A stretch of DNA of 34,667 nucleotides, taken from the IMG/VR virus record IMGVR_UViG_3300037475_000083, positions 1 through 34,667 of that record. One strand, written 5' to 3'. Under the pieces are notes generated by a model. That model had not been told where the DNA came from. It did not search any database and was given only the letters and a program-made list of their open reading frames with translations. Below, piece after piece: positions 6,758 to 26,104 of this stretch; within the stretch, counting starts at the first letter, position 1, and every line of letters begins with the position of its first letter. Made by a program: the position numbers and the translations under genes. The DNA is from a virus.

Positions 6758-7600
6758 TTACGCTGTCGCAATGATACGATAATGGATTTTAGCCACGAAG
6801 GTACTATCACCAGTTGTAAATGCAGCAGTTGCATTACTGAGATAAATCCCTTTGTTAACCGTAGTCGTGAACGGAGCAACCGCAAGACTTCCAGCCTGAC
6901 GGAATGACGTACTAGCAGCAGCGCCAGTAAAGTCAGCAGCGGCTTCTGAGGCAGTAGCCAATACACCAGCACCGTTAACGGTGGAGTCATATTGAGCTGC
7001 AACCACACCACCAGCGGCAAACTGAGCAGCACCGTAGGTCATTACCAGTTCCATTTGATCAATGATGATCAAATTATTGGCGCCTGGAGCGGCAATCAAT
7101 AATTTTGGAGCTGCGTACATACCGTTGAATTCAGCCGCAGTAATCGCAACACTTGCGTATAACTGCAAGTTGTTAACGTTAAAGCCTGAATCGGTACCAA
7201 TACTTCCATTGGTATCGCCAGCAAGCAGGATATTGCCGACTGTATAGGACGCAGGAGCGCCATCAACAGAAGCAACATACGTCTTGGTGTTGTCGGTTAC
7301 GTTCTTTGCAGCCGCTTGACCCAATCCAGTTAGAACACTTGCGATTGTCCAGTTTGGCGCAGAGTATGAAACCATAAACTCGCCAAGCGTGGAATTTTCA
7401 CCAGTGTTTAATGGAAATGTGGAAGTGTCATCATAATTGATATAGATGACATCATTAGGCTTGATCTTTGCAGAAAGATCATTCATGTAACCAGCGGTAG
7501 TAATCGTCGCAAGATCATCCTCTGTGGAAGCAATGAAAATGCTAGGAGCTGTACTGGTGTTACCTTCGGATATTAAGGCAAACGTATCGAAATTTGACAT
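6758..7600 (-). CDS. Probable head decoration or head-fibre structural protein
   Basis: This encodes 280 residues, rich in Ala, Thr, Gly and Val with almost no Cys, which is a virion surface composition. The N-terminal ~60 residues contain TTAGYMNDLSAKIKPNDVIYINY, similar in style to short adaptor domains of phage structural proteins. The C-terminal half (about 140-280) has the pattern ITAAEFNGMYAAPKLLIAAPGANN, then AAGGVVAAQY, then KIHYRIIA. I associate this with a beta-sandwich domain common just downstream of phage capsid genes. GGAGG lies eight bases before the ATG within a 14-base leader shared with the gene at 18167. It lies 17 nt downstream of the capsid gene. The exact role is not proven. 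Confidence 0.6.
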   Translation of the reverse strand: MSNFDTFALISEGNTSTAPSIFIASTEDDLATITTAGYMNDLSAKIKPNDVIYINYDDTSTFPLNTGENSTLGEFMVSYSAPNWTIASVLTGLGQAAAKNVTDNTKTYVASVDGAPASYTVGNILLAGDTNGSIGTDSGFNVNNLQLYASVAITAAEFNGMYAAPKLLIAAPGANNLIIIDQMELVMTYGAAQFAAGGVVAAQYDSTVNGAGVLATASEAAADFTGAAASTSFRQAGSLAVAPFTTTVNKGIYLSNATAAFTTGDSTFVAKIHYRIIATA

Positions 7601-17137: not shown

Positions 17138-17186
17138 CTCGCCAAAAAAATAAAGTGTCGAATCATCACATAAATATATTACTATT

Positions 17187-17246
17187 AGTATTGATTCTTA
17201 ATACTTATAGTGTTAGACTGCTCTCATCTTAATTTAGTGATGAGGA
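17187..17246 (+). promoter_or_regulatory. Promoter/leader region of the DnaJ-like unit
   Basis: TATAGT (17206-17211) is a -10 candidate; the -35 is weak. It overlaps an inverted repeat AGTATT/AATACT (17187-17192 and 17200-17205). The leader then carries TTAGTGATGAGGA (17234-17246). The same 13-mer stands before the other rightward unit (23295-23307), and in both the GAGG is the ribosome site. Confidence 0.5.
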
Positions 17247-17254
17247 TAAAAGTA

Positions 17255-17785
17255 ATGAAAATGAACCACAAAGACGCGCTACATTTACTCGGTGTAAATT
17301 TAAGTAAAACCGACAAAGATGACCGCGCGATTATCAAACATGCTTATCGTGTAGCTTGCAGTAAATACCATCCAGACAGAAACCCTGCTGGCCTTGAAAT
17401 GATGAAACTGGTTAACGCTGCTTATGACGCGTTACAGGATGTTTTAAACGGTGCGAGCTATGACAAGAGCATTCTTGATGATCATAAAGAAGGTGCAGAA
17501 AATTACGGCGACGACATTAACAACGCGTTGATGGCCATCATCAATTTAGGTTTGGAGATTGAAGTTTGCGGTTCATGGGTTTGGGTATCAGGTAACACAC
17601 GCCCACACTCCACCATTTTAAAAGAAGCCGGCTTTAAGTGGGCACCCAAAAAGCTTATGTGGCATTACCGCCCCGCAGATTACAAAAGTTTTAACCGTGG
17701 CAATTGGGATATAGAAAAGATTAGAGAACGTCACGGCAGCCAGATTATTAAAAATAAATCATTTCAACAATTAGGGAGTAATTAA
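17255..17785 (+). CDS. Phage DnaJ-like (J-domain) protein
   Basis: This encodes 176 residues starting MKMNHKDALHLLGVN, with GAGG nine bases before the ATG. Residues 1-75 form a J domain: helix I, the signature YHPDRNP (HPD at about 45-47) and helix III (MKLVNAAYDALQDVL). J domains stimulate Hsp70 ATPase. Residues about 105-160 (CGSWVWVSGNTRPHSTILKE, then GFKWAPKKLMWHYRP) form a second domain that commonly follows J domains in phage and prophage proteins; its role is unsettled. It probably recruits host DnaK. It is first in a three-gene rightward unit ending at the 18140 terminator. Confidence 0.88.
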   Translation: MKMNHKDALHLLGVNLSKTDKDDRAIIKHAYRVACSKYHPDRNPAGLEMMKLVNAAYDALQDVLNGASYDKSILDDHKEGAENYGDDINNALMAIINLGLEIEVCGSWVWVSGNTRPHSTILKEAGFKWAPKKLMWHYRPADYKSFNRGNWDIEKIRERHGSQIIKNKSFQQLGSN

Positions 17786-17915: not shown

Positions 17916-18134
17916 ATGTACACGGAAGCAACACATATCATAAAAAATGAGGCGCTAGTAAAGCGCCTCGAAGGATATACACAAATTAACGATACCATAA
18001 AAAGGACACGAACATATGGAATAACAGGAAAGTTTGAGATTCATCACATTTTACAGCATGAAAATTCACAATACATTGTTTCAATCACAGCGGTTAATGA
18101 ACATGACCGCGTTATCAGCGTTATTTATCCGTAA
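17916..18134 (+). CDS. Small hypothetical protein
   Basis: This encodes 72 residues, with AGGAG five bases before the ATG. It has a charged N-terminal helix (NEALVKRLEGYTQINDTIKR) and a beta-strand-rich second half (KFEIHHILQHENSQYIVSITAVN). It is the last gene of the DnaJ-like unit, closed by the hairpin at 18140-18160. No family is recognised. Confidence 0.55.
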   Translation: MYTEATHIIKNEALVKRLEGYTQINDTIKRTRTYGITGKFEIHHILQHENSQYIVSITAVNEHDRVISVIYP

Positions 18135-21469: not shown

Positions 21470-21652
21470 ATGGATGATGTGAAAATGAAGAAGAAACCAA
21501 TGGAAAAAATGGAGTTAAAGAAAGGAAAAAAAGTTGCAAAGAAAGCCATCAAGAAAGCCAAAAAAGGCTTAAAAAAAAAGTTGATTATGGCGAAAGGTGA
21601 AATGCAAAATAAAAAAGTTGAAAGAATTTTAAATAAGAGAAAAGCCGCTTAA
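21470..21652 (+). CDS. Lys-rich small basic protein
   Basis: This encodes 60 residues, over 40% Lys: MDDVKMKKKPMEKMELKKGK, then KAIKKAKKGLKKKLIMAKGE. It resembles small histone-like or nucleic-acid-binding phage proteins; no fold is assigned. There is no good ribosome site before ATG 21470. ATG 21485 (MKKKP) is an alternative, preceded by GGATG. Its stop lies inside the terminator hairpin at 21640-21664. It is a single-gene rightward unit. Confidence 0.6.
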   Translation: MDDVKMKKKPMEKMELKKGKKVAKKAIKKAKKGLKKKLIMAKGEMQNKKVERILNKRKAA

Positions 21653-21664
21653 AGCGGCTTTTTT
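21640..21664. terminator. Shared bidirectional terminator with overlapping stops
   Basis: The stem AAAAGCCGC/GCGGCTTTT (9 bp, loop TTAAA) is followed by TT on the plus strand and TCTCTTATTT on the minus strand. The loop contains TTAA, which supplies TAA stops to the genes on both strands (21650-21652 plus, 21649-21651 minus). Confidence 0.85.
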
Positions 21665-22962: not shown

Positions 22963-23163
22963 TTAGTTCCTTAATATCTGCACTTTAACTTTATACTTTT
23001 TAGCCATTGCGTCGATAGTCATTAATACATCATAAGAAGGTTTTCTTGTACCGCGCTCATAACAGCTAACAATCATTTGTGACAAACCTAATTCTTCTCC
23101 GAACTCCCGTTGCGACATTCTGATTGATTCCCTTAAAAACTTGATTTTCTCTTGTAAATTCAT
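22963..23163 (-). CDS. XRE-family HTH repressor (Cro/CI-like)
   Basis: This encodes 66 residues starting MNLQEKIKFLRESIRMSQRE. The helix-turn-helix is complete: SQREFGEELGLSQMIVSCYE, then RGTRKPSYDVLMTIDAMAKK. The size is that of a Cro-like DNA-binding protein without a cleavage or oligomerisation domain. GGAGG stands about nine bases before ATG 23163; earlier in-frame starts lack a ribosome site. It is divergent from the rightward recombination unit, with a dyad and promoters between them, so it probably represses that unit and itself. Confidence 0.85.
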   Translation of the reverse strand: MNLQEKIKFLRESIRMSQREFGEELGLSQMIVSCYERGTRKPSYDVLMTIDAMAKKYKVKVQILRN

Positions 23164-23249: not shown

Positions 23250-23278
23250 TTGACAATCAAAACAAAAAGTATTAACCT
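23250..23278 (+). promoter_or_regulatory. Rightward early promoter
   Basis: A perfect -35 TTGACA (23250-23255) is followed after 17 bases by TAACCT (23273-23278), a weak -10. It would drive the unit 23314-25601. The leader holds TTAGTGATGAGGA (23295-23307), shared with the DnaJ-like unit. Confidence 0.6.
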
Positions 23279-23313
23279 AGCCTCGTTAACTTAATTAGTG
23301 ATGAGGAAATAAG

Positions 23314-23418
23314 ATGTATATGACACCGCAAGAAGAAATACAATTTTGGATAACGTTCGGCTATCTGATAGTCTGTAATGACTGCAATACAATTCATGTT
23401 AAGACAAGGATGCACTAA
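23314..23418 (+). CDS. Leader miniprotein of the early unit
   Basis: This encodes 34 residues: MYMTPQEEIQFWITFGYLIV, then CNDCNTIHVKTRMH. GAGG lies eight bases before the ATG within the 13-mer shared with 17234-17246. It has one CxxC. The stop is 2 nt before the next ATG, suggesting coupling. It is small, but the ribosome site and position support it. Confidence 0.55.
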   Translation: MYMTPQEEIQFWITFGYLIVCNDCNTIHVKTRMH

Positions 23419-23420
23419 CA

Positions 23421-23720
23421 ATGAATATCAGAAACTACATTGAAAAAGTTTTAATTAACGAACACGCATATAAAAGTTTTAACAATGGTTACTCACTGGA
23501 TGTTACTGACTTGCCAGCTCATGACCTTGATAATTTTCTGGATATGCTTTTCAAACATGACTATCACACACGCGATTTAATCCTTGACCGTATGCAGGAT
23601 TTAATTAACGAGCGTTTACCGTTGCTTGAATGCCGCGATAAATATGACGCTGGTTATGTTCCGGTACAAGATAAAACAAATGGTGAAATTAACTGGATAG
23701 CAAGACGGGGTGCAGCATGA
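23421..23720 (+). CDS. Hypothetical protein of recombination unit
   Basis: This encodes 99 residues starting MNIRNYIEKVLINEHAYKSF. It is helical, with an Asp/Leu-rich centre (DVTDLPAHDLDNFLDMLFKH) and a basic end. It starts 2 nt after the miniprotein stop and overlaps the ATPase start by ATGA. No family is recognised; its position suggests an accessory to the recombination proteins. Confidence 0.55.
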   Translation: MNIRNYIEKVLINEHAYKSFNNGYSLDVTDLPAHDLDNFLDMLFKHDYHTRDLILDRMQDLINERLPLLECRDKYDAGYVPVQDKTNGEINWIARRGAA

Positions 23721-24388
23721 GTAATACATCAATCATTATTGGCGAAAGCGGTACAGGCAAATCAACTTCCATTCGTAATCTGAAACCGGAAGAAACTTTT
23801 ATTATAAACGTTCTTAATAAACCGTTGCCGTTTCGCGGTTATAAAAATATGTACACGCGAGTTTCTGCGGATGGTTCAACTGGAAACTATTACACGTCAG
23901 ACGTATATGAACATATTGAAATTGTAATCAGAAAGATTAATGCGAAACGTCCAGAAATAAAAACATTAATCATTGATGACTTTCAATATTTGATGGCAGG
24001 GGAATTCATGAGCCGCGCATTAGAGCGCGGTTATGACAAGTTTTCAGAGATTGGAAAGCATGCTTATGATCTTTTAAAACTGTTGCCGACATTGCGTGAG
24101 GATTTGGACATTTTTGTGTTGACCCACTCGGAAGCAAATGAATCCGGCAAGATGAAAGTAAAGACCATAGGCAAGATGCTCGATGACAAGATAACAATCG
24201 AGGGTATGTACGCAATGGTACTTCAAACGGAATTAACCGATGGTAATTATCATTTCATTACCCAAGGCGATTCACGTCATATTGCAAAATCTCCAATGGG
24301 AATGTTTGAAACTCGTAACATTCCAAACGATCTAGCATTCGTCAAAACAAAAATGAATAGTTATTACAATGAGGATATAGCACTATGA
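23717..24388 (+). CDS. P-loop ATPase, Sak4-like recombination protein
   Basis: This encodes 223 residues. Walker A is GESGTGKST (residues 8-16), and Walker B is TLIIDDFQYLM (about 83-93). A sensor-like LTHSEAN follows at about 137-143. The RecA-type core with little else matches phage AAA_24/Sak4-type proteins. These work with single-strand binding proteins in strand annealing or replication-linked recombination. It is followed directly by Gp157-like and ssDNA-binding-like genes, the usual set. Starts and stops overlap by ATGA on both sides. Confidence 0.82.
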   Translation: MSNTSIIIGESGTGKSTSIRNLKPEETFIINVLNKPLPFRGYKNMYTRVSADGSTGNYYTSDVYEHIEIVIRKINAKRPEIKTLIIDDFQYLMAGEFMSRALERGYDKFSEIGKHAYDLLKLLPTLREDLDIFVLTHSEANESGKMKVKTIGKMLDDKITIEGMYAMVLQTELTDGNYHFITQGDSRHIAKSPMGMFETRNIPNDLAFVKTKMNSYYNEDIAL

Positions 24389-24885
24389 ATTTATACAGCA
24401 TAGCAAATGAGTATCAAAATATTCTGGAACAAACATTCAACCCAGAAACAGGGGAATTAAATGAAGAAGCGCTGGCTAGACTGGATGAAATCAAAACCGA
24501 TGTTAAAGACAAAGGAATTGCGGTCGCTTCTTATATTAAAAACATCGAGGCAGAATGCGAAGCAATTGAAAATGCTAAAAAATCAATGGCAGAACGGGAA
24601 GCGCGTCTTAACAGACGCGTCACCTACTTAACAAGTTACTTGCAAAGTAATATGGAGCGTTGCGGAATCAATGAGATTTCATGCCCATACTTTGTGATCA
24701 AGCTAAAGAAAAATCCGGTGTCGGTTGATGTATTTAATAAATTGCAAATACCAGAGCAATATATCAAAACAAAACAGACTATCGAGCATAGTGTTGATAA
24801 GGTGAAAATAAAAGAAGATATTTTGGCAGGTGTTGAGATACCAGGTGCAACACTTAAACAAAATGTAAGACTGGAAATCCGTTAA
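24385..24885 (+). CDS. Gp157-like protein
   Basis: This encodes 166 residues. It has the layout of the phage Gp157 family: an N-terminal region with DPETGE-like text (NPETGELNEEALARLDEI), a central coiled coil of about 45 residues (IEAECEAIENAKKSMAEREA), then a compact C-terminus with YFVIKLKKNPVSVDV and IPEQYIKTK. The family was named from a Streptococcus phage where it was linked to phage resistance, but its biochemical role is unclear. It usually sits between an ATPase and an ssDNA-binding protein, as here. Confidence 0.88.
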   Translation: MNLYSIANEYQNILEQTFNPETGELNEEALARLDEIKTDVKDKGIAVASYIKNIEAECEAIENAKKSMAEREARLNRRVTYLTSYLQSNMERCGINEISCPYFVIKLKKNPVSVDVFNKLQIPEQYIKTKQTIEHSVDKVKIKEDILAGVEIPGATLKQNVRLEIR

Positions 24886-24907
24886 TCCAACATAAGGAAA
24901 TGTAAAA

Positions 24908-25366
24908 ATGACATATAGAGTCTGGACAGATGAAGAAATCAAAAATAGAAACGTGGTCGAAGATGGCAGTTATCCATTTAAAATAACAACAATCACAAAG
25001 AAAAGAACCAAGATTCAATTGGATGATCAAGGCAATGCAAAACCAACATATGAAATGTGGGAAGTTGATTTTGAATTCCATGATAAGCATGGCGTCATCA
25101 AAAAGTTAAGGGACTGGATTATATTTTGTGAGGGCATGGATTGGAAATTACGTCATCTTGCCAGCACCACCGGACAAATTGAACTGTATGAGGCGCAGCA
25201 ATTAGCGCCCCATCATCTTCAAGGCAAGCCAGGCGTGTTCCTCTTGGGATCAAAAGAAAGTACATATAATGGCGAAACAAGAAAGCAAAACTTCGTCAAA
25301 GATTATGTAAAAAGAGAAGATCAAGTTGAAAAATCATCACTGGATGATGATATCCCGCATATGTAG
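24908..25366 (+). CDS. ssDNA-binding-like protein (DUF669-type)
   Basis: This encodes 152 residues, with AAGGA about nine bases before the ATG. The beta-rich N-terminus (DGSYPFKITTITKKRTKI), then MWEVDFEFHDKHG and LRDWIIFCEGMDWKLRHLAS, ends with an acidic tail (SSLDDDIPHM). The acidic C-terminus and OB-like middle fit single-strand binding proteins, and the cluster (ATPase, Gp157, this) is the usual setting of DUF669-type proteins. It would coat single strands for the Sak4-like ATPase. Confidence 0.75.
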   Translation: MTYRVWTDEEIKNRNVVEDGSYPFKITTITKKRTKIQLDDQGNAKPTYEMWEVDFEFHDKHGVIKKLRDWIIFCEGMDWKLRHLASTTGQIELYEAQQLAPHHLQGKPGVFLLGSKESTYNGETRKQNFVKDYVKREDQVEKSSLDDDIPHM

Positions 25367-25427: not shown

Positions 25428-25601
25428 ATGGTTTCACGATGTTGTTCCACGAATGTTTATTTAGTAGAGACTGAATACCATATTTATTATGGGTGTCATG
25501 GGTGTTGTCGTCCCTGTGAATTGAAAGAATTCAAAAGTGTTCAAGACAACAAAGCGGTCAACAACCTCATCACTAATGACTGTTTGGCCGCTTGTTGTTA
25601 A
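25428..25601 (+). CDS. Cys-rich miniprotein closing the early unit
   Basis: This encodes 57 residues with nine Cys: MVSRCCSTNVYLVETEYHIY, then YGCHGCCRPCELKEFKSVQD, ending DCLAACC. GGAG and GAGG stand close before the ATG. The CxxCCxxC cluster suggests zinc binding. Similar short Cys-rich proteins follow ssDNA-binding genes in other phages. Its 3' end overlaps the terminator hairpin 25552-25610. Confidence 0.68.
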   Translation: MVSRCCSTNVYLVETEYHIYYGCHGCCRPCELKEFKSVQDNKAVNNLITNDCLAACC

Positions 25602-25610
25602 TTTTATTTT
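25552..25610 (+). terminator. Terminator of early unit with anti-Shine-Dalgarno loop
   Basis: The stem AAGCGGTCAA (25552-25561) pairs with TTGGCCGCTT (25584-25593), ten pairs with one G-U, and a 22-base loop follows between them. After the stem comes GTTGTTAATTTTATTTT. The loop holds CCTCATCACTAAT (25565-25577), a perfect complement to the leader of the same unit (23294-23306). The large loop is unusual for a terminator. Confidence 0.6.
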
Positions 25611-26104
25611 AGACAGTCTGGAATGAGTGATTTTAATGTATCAGGATCACTTACACTGGATAAATCCATATTCTGCGGAAAGTCTCTTAATTCTTTCAAG
25701 GTGGCTTTTAAATCATCACCAAGAATAGCATTTTCCACTTGAGGATTTAGCTGTTGCGGAAATCCAAGATCAATAAATTTTTGACTGCGAATATCGCGCA
25801 GCTTGTTAAGATGAATGGATTTTGCTTTATCCATGTGTATCTTGATACTTCCGTTATCATGCTTCCATGCATTTCTAAAGTATCTATCTTCTGGTAATGC
25901 TGACTTATCTAAAATGAAATACTCCTGACCTTCTGGAATATCTTTTTTTGCAATGTAATGTAAAAGTTGTTCATCAGTATCAATGCCAGGATGATGCTTA
26001 TCAAAATGTGCTCTATGTCTGGATAGCTTATCAAATAATTCCGCACAAGGCGTAACAATAGCCAGTGTACCTTCTTCATGCATATAGCAAATAATTTTAT
26101 CCAT
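25604..26104 (-). CDS. Tail-fibre assembly / chaperone-like protein
   Basis: This encodes 166 residues, starting 2 nt after the fibre stop. The second half (about 85-166) has the pattern HMDKAKSIHLNKLRDIRSQK, then ILGDDLKATLKELRDFPQ and DPDTLKSLIP. This matches small phage tail-assembly chaperone-like proteins whose C-termini read 'KA-x-x-IH-x-x-x-IR' and later 'LR-D-x-P'. Such genes lie directly downstream of a fibre and help it fold or trimerise. The last gene of the leftward late operon. Confidence 0.6.
   Translation of the reverse strand: MDKIICYMHEEGTLAIVTPCAELFDKLSRHRAHFDKHHPGIDTDEQLLHYIAKKDIPEGQEYFILDKSALPEDRYFRNAWKHDNGSIKIHMDKAKSIHLNKLRDIRSQKFIDLGFPQQLNPQVENAILGDDLKATLKELRDFPQNMDLSSVSDPDTLKSLIPDCLK

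Follow-up and report, generated by a model that had tools for sequence, protein, structure and literature searches.

Does the loop of a hairpin at the end of an early phage transcription unit read the ribosome sites of that unit and of others, and what would such a pairing do? The question is raised by a 34,667-base virus record from IMG/VR (IMGVR_UViG_3300037475_000083), the whole of which was analysed and is called the window here. Near the 3′ end of its early unit, on the plus strand, lies a hairpin (25546 to 25599, fold approximately -21 kcal/mol; -23.5 kcal/mol and z -3.1 for the surrounding 86-nt region), the loop of which contains the word CCTCATCACTAAT (25565 to 25577, plus strand). 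This word includes the complement of the Shine-Dalgarno (SD) core GAGG. A 4-bp helix (UCAU/AUGA) closes part of the loop in the minimum-energy fold. The hairpin is directly followed by a U-rich tail (AATTTTATTTTA, 25600 to 25611, plus strand), which is terminator-like by its sequence, and directly precedes the end of a convergent gene (25604 to 26104). The final codons of a 57-aa Cys-rich open reading frame (25428 to 25601, plus strand) overlap the hairpin. A homologue of this reading frame is located in the related phage L150 (at 6808); a search of the phage collection found no relatives of it, and none of the convergent gene were found in viral contigs. As no promoter-like site is listed directly upstream of the hairpin on the plus strand, the hairpin RNA most likely arises as the 3′ end of the early transcript. 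An Rfam covariance-model search matched no known family at the hairpin of the window or at those of L150 and L146, another relative.

According to the preliminary description, the loop is complementary to the leader of the first gene of its own unit over 13 nt and, in a 12-nt version, to a leader in front of a DnaJ-like unit. Both statements are exact in letters and coordinates: the loop word matches the SD leader of the first early gene (ATTAGTGATGAGG, 23294 to 23306, 13 nt paired) and that of the DnaJ-like gene (TTAGTGATGAGG, 17234 to 17245, 12 nt paired), and all three sequences lie on the plus strand, as had been claimed. The SD core GAGG forms part of the word in the first target, where 7 nt lie between the end of the word and the ATG at 23314; in the second the paired word stops 9 nt short of the ATG. 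Both SDs are predicted to be masked in cis, the early one by the hairpin CCUCGUU/GAUGAGG (23281 to 23306, plus strand), which is kept in L146, and the DnaJ-like one by UCUCAUC/GAUGAGG (17222 to 17245, plus strand). A probable early promoter (TTGACA-17-TAACCT, 23250 to 23278, plus strand) was inferred by eye. Since the early and DnaJ-like promoter-leader regions align over approximately 88 nt (score 52, unequalled in 500 shuffles), the two leaders are not independent and count as one element.

Several other features were observed in these and similar leaders. Dyads are frequent near the promoter, and a near-perfect palindrome, ACTATTAGTATT-N7-AATACTTATAGT (17181 to 17211), spans the presumed promoter of the DnaJ-like unit and is likely an operator. 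By eye, a motif recurs a short way 3′ of the presumed -10 box in many early leaders of these phages; it reads AACTTAA (ATTAAC in others), with examples in the window (23288 to 23294) and in leaders of L016, L018 and L115. The promoter-leader of the DnaJ-like gene has look-alikes among the other leaders of its phage in L115, L116 and L117 (2, 5 and 3 copies, respectively), and the sequence is phage-specific.

The first early gene (23314 to 23418, plus strand) encodes a small CxxC protein of 34 aa with relatives in L003, L015 and L017. The early cassette, a recombination cassette (23421 to 25366, plus strand), comprises a 99-aa gene, a Sak4-like annealing protein gene, a Gp157/Mu Gam-like gene and a 152-aa gene. 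An HTH_3 repressor-like gene (22963 to 23163, minus strand) is divergent from the early unit. The DnaJ-domain gene of the second target unit (17255 to 17785, plus strand) was recognised by Pfam (PF00226, E 1.2e-9). A strong terminator-like hairpin for leftward transcription (17949 to 17969, minus strand) is located inside a plus-strand open reading frame (17916 to 18134). At 21604 to 21664 (plus strand), a hairpin ending in AGCCGCTTTAAGCGGCT was matched weakly by Rfam to the prophage sRNA isrK, with 23.8 bits against a gathering score of 50.

By itself, the complementarity in the window is only mildly unusual. Non-local inverted pairs of 13 nt number 17, compared to a mean of 15.5 in shuffled sequences, and a 13-nt match of any leader with any hairpin arose in 3.2% of simulated phages of window size, built from a pool of leaders and terminator-like hairpins taken from other phage loci. 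For a given 65-nt window to match the early leader alone by chance, the probability is approximately 2e-4. The chance figures given here are individual ones that carry no full correction for the several passes in which the relatives were looked at after the hypothesis had been stated. A C-rich loop might simply happen to match purine-rich SD leaders, which would agree with these counts and with the four relatives in which the loop is missing. The window statistics are weak and do not by themselves prove the observation to be real; it is the conservation and covariation in relatives, described below, that do so. The placement in two leaders and one loop, which the preliminary description had called striking, is supported as a pairing by the relatives.

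Relatives were fetched by their Sak4 proteins (75 to 83% identity), and word copies were sought by pattern searches of the whole records; four of them, all uncultured phages, carry such a hairpin. The SD word of the window is also present in the early leaders of L146 and L150. In each of these two records the 10-mer AGTGATGAGG occurs exactly twice, once in sense in the early leader and once in antisense (CCTCATCACTAA); the antisense copy lies on the transcript strand of the leader, 2.6 to 2.9 kb downstream of the sense copy, in the apical loop of a hairpin. The first 12 nt of the window loop word are identical in both loops, and in L146 the match to the leader resumes beyond the 11-mer, on the far side of a bulge (AAC with GUU). 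The stems of the three hairpins (GTCCGCAGTGGCC...GGCCA...GCGGAC in L150 and GCTAGCCC...GGATA...TATCC...GGGCTAGC in L146) show no evident mutual similarity; the loop alone is kept. Identical loops on unrelated stems in two relatives argue against a chance match. The hairpin region folds moderately in L150 (z -1.7) and no better than shuffles in L146 (z -0.9). The hairpin had been described as a terminator, which fits the U-rich tail in the window but not every relative; since at least one of them, L146, has no U run after its hairpin, terminator function is not the shared feature.

In L018 and L019 both partners are different and still match each other. The early leader of L018 is CAGCTACGGAGTATAAAACATG, and its hairpin, flanked by the last early gene and the convergent gene (z -4.2), holds CTCCGTAGC in the loop. 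In L019 the early leader is AACTTACTAAGGAGAAACAAATG, and a hairpin at 7233 to 7285, with a T run after it, holds CCTTAGTAAG in the loop. The longest perfect complements in the five cognate early pairs are 13, 11, 10, 9 and 10 nt, compared to 3 to 7 nt between the three word groups (one value rises to 8 when longer leader segments are used). RNAduplex energies for the early leaders range from -17 to -21 kcal/mol for cognate and from -2.8 to -10.4 kcal/mol for non-cognate combinations. The individual chance per window is 0.0033 for the L018 match and 0.0012 for that of L019. Covariation of loop and leaders in related phages, which had been proposed as a test, is therefore present, with both partners kept in L146 and L150 and both changed matchingly in L018 and L019, and it supports the proposed loop pairing with the two rightward leaders, as predicted from sequence. 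The predicted code of loop-SD pairing covaries between phages, and pairing words that have changed together at least twice in one phage clade are strong comparative evidence for RNA pairing. With two further independent words that have their own matching loops, and with every sense copy of the L018 word located at an SD, a merely accidental match is strongly disfavoured and we give it hardly any weight.

The same comparison bears on the idea that a phage regulator binds the word as DNA, the word being an operator or half-site present in the leaders and inverted in the hairpin. Such a site would account for the likeness of the two promoter-leader regions of the window over approximately 88 nt and for the dyads near the promoter. 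The word, however, always contains the SD and ends 7 to 9 nt before the ATG, its antisense copy is always found in a hairpin loop, and both partners differ matchingly between phages. A single operator copy placed in a loop would account for none of these features. As the word keeps to the SD and to a hairpin loop, this explanation is disfavoured and seems very improbable.

RNA pairing at the SD is also what the additional targets point to. Each of the ten leader-loop pairs has the SD core within the paired word, which ends 7 to 9 nt before an ATG; two copies of the SD word stand before genes in the window, two in L150 and three in L018. In the 40.7-kb record of L018, the word GCTACGGAG occurs in sense three times, each time as an SD just before an ATG: in the early leader and in front of two genes (74 and 108 aa) approximately 10 kb upstream. 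Its sole antisense copy is the hairpin loop. The pairing of this loop with the leader of the 108-aa gene comprises 12 nt plus G-U (-26.1). In L150 the second leader (TTGTGATGAGGCAATAAAAATG; 9 nt, -15.9) precedes an ArdA antirestriction gene (Pfam, 8e-36), while the probable second leader of L019 (ATACTAAGGAGAAAGAAAATG) is weak (8 nt, a bulge, then 4 nt; -13.4).

In the window, L146, L150, L018 and L019, the hairpin shares a strand with the Sak4-Gp157 cassette and follows it downstream, 2.3 to 2.9 kb from the first target and on one predicted transcript with that target. This arrangement would also suit a mainly intramolecular contact, in which the 3′ loop pairs with the SD at the 5′ end of its own mRNA and circularises it, so that initiation is blocked or an RNase III site is formed with no free small RNA; a mechanism of this type was reported for icaR (PMC3868564). 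The targets on other units, the DnaJ-like gene of the window, ardA of L150 and two genes of L018, require trans action or separate transcripts, and we regard a mainly intramolecular contact as rather unlikely.

The system is patchy, as judged from four relatives without the loop and from the low excess among Sak4 loci. No matching hairpin loop was seen in L106, L016, L017 and L003. A scan of 110 Sak4 loci gave 28 hits, compared to 47 of 330 in the null, which leaves little excess outside the clade. The exact leader pattern gave only coding matches in unrelated phages when all viral contigs were searched. Antisense copies in the records of L106, L017 and L003 are located outside hairpin loops and were treated as chance.

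We consider it likely that the hairpin is a phage antisense element which pairs with the SDs of several early units and exerts a delayed negative feedback on translation. Transcription of the early unit would eventually copy the hairpin near its 3′ end, and the loop would then expose a word whose complement lies in the SD leader of that unit's first gene. The same loop might read the other early units, that is, the DnaJ-like unit in the window, ardA in L150 and the two small genes in L018. Pairing over approximately 9 to 13 bp would block ribosome binding, as expected from the initiation block shown experimentally for icaR (PMC3868564) and for OppZ and CarZ (PMC7398697). Early translation would be lowered when transcription has reached the end of the unit; as the cassette is transcribed ahead of the hairpin, delayed negative feedback is the simplest logic. 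Complementarity, loop placement, location of the targets at SDs, conservation, covariation and multiplicity of targets can be read in the letters, from which we infer a separate RNA, its action in cis or in trans, the repressive outcome and the role in timing. Because loop and ribosome sites change together between phages, the hairpin is probably a built-in off-switch for early protein synthesis, compact and modular, one loop of which appears to serve several early units.

Some energetic results speak against this repression. After opening of both partners, the net free energy of loop pairing is only approximately -8 kcal/mol, and a co-fold without pseudoknots favours other pairings, a type of co-folding that cannot test a kissing interaction. 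The early SD is masked in cis in the window, L146 and L018, so that an extra blocker may add little in these leaders, where the cis hairpins are an additional layer. The masking has an opposite interpretation as well, in which the loop, which looks like the 5′ arm in a more perfect form, displaces this arm from the leader hairpin and activates translation as an anti-antisense. The loop, however, pairs with the SD itself, which would thus still be covered, and in the L150 early leader the SD has no cis mask; activation therefore appears improbable. For the repressive antisense element, a further and rather doubtful extension is a private-code RNA regulon, with one SD word per phage, one hairpin reading it and no cross-regulation between related phages. 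If this were true, and if the hairpin RNA were made in lysogens or early in infection, it could give sequence-specific RNA immunity against co-infecting phages with the same word. The findings also suggest a rule for other phages with start-associated sequences, where an antisense copy of the repeated SD leader should be sought in a hairpin loop.

Other putative structured elements were observed in the relatives. A repeated noncoding module of approximately 60 to 100 nt with complementary ends (ATGGCCGACGATA ... GGGAAAATAGGCCACC) is present twice each in L146 (7260 to 7356 and 7399 to 7475) and L150 (7146 to 7242 and 7752 to 7811), with a variant on the minus strand of the window at approximately 13070 to 12959. 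It is possibly an unrecognised structured RNA, for which Rfam gave no match in L146 and L150. A hammerhead-like core (CTGATGAGAGAGTAACGCCTCGAAATGCAAGTGCATAGCG) was noticed by eye in L146 (7166 to 7215), where noncoding sequence precedes the antisense hairpin; Rfam gave no confirmation of it.

Phage antisense control is known mostly in the form of single cis-antisense RNAs. P4 CI RNA, lambda OOP and P22 sar are phage RNAs pairing with phage leaders or mRNAs, the first acting through transcription termination and the other two as cis-antisense to overlapping genes; none of them is known to read as a regulon of several SDs with covarying words. In the open-access literature searched, no phage system was found that combines SD words repeated in several early units, one reading hairpin and, among related phages, different words with matching changes in both partners. 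A repeated word has been described in cluster K mycobacteriophages, where the 13-bp SD-containing SAS precedes several phage genes and a subset with ESAS has a promoter and inverted repeats upstream (PMC3203893, PMC11373665). The phages studied here likewise repeat an SD-containing word before several genes of one phage, but SAS has 13 to 19 copies and no known reader, whereas here 1 to 3 copies are accompanied by a matching antisense hairpin. As the words found here (AGTGATGAGG, GCTACGGAG and CTTACTAAGG) differ from the cluster K consensus GGGATAGGAGCCC, they are alike to SAS and not members of it.

The principle of a 3′-end RNA pairing with an SD is already known. In Vibrio cholerae, the sRNAs OppZ and CarZ from operon 3′ ends pair with their own transcripts and inhibit translation, resulting in negative feedback (PMC7398697). 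The phage element is similarly located at the 3′ end of an operon that it targets, with a predicted and covarying pairing of 9 to 13 nt at its own ribosome site. OppZ and CarZ, in contrast, are host sRNAs matured by RNase E (PMC7398697), whereas the word here is placed in the structured loop of a phage hairpin, which has several target units and words differing between phages. In icaR of Staphylococcus aureus, a C-rich 3′-UTR motif, UCCCCUG, pairs with the SD of its own mRNA and blocks initiation (PMC3868564). The phage hairpin resembles it in carrying downstream a motif complementary to an SD on what is predicted to be the same mRNA, here judged from the sequence; icaR, however, is a single host-encoded gene, while the phage loop matches several transcription units and is backed by comparative covariation.
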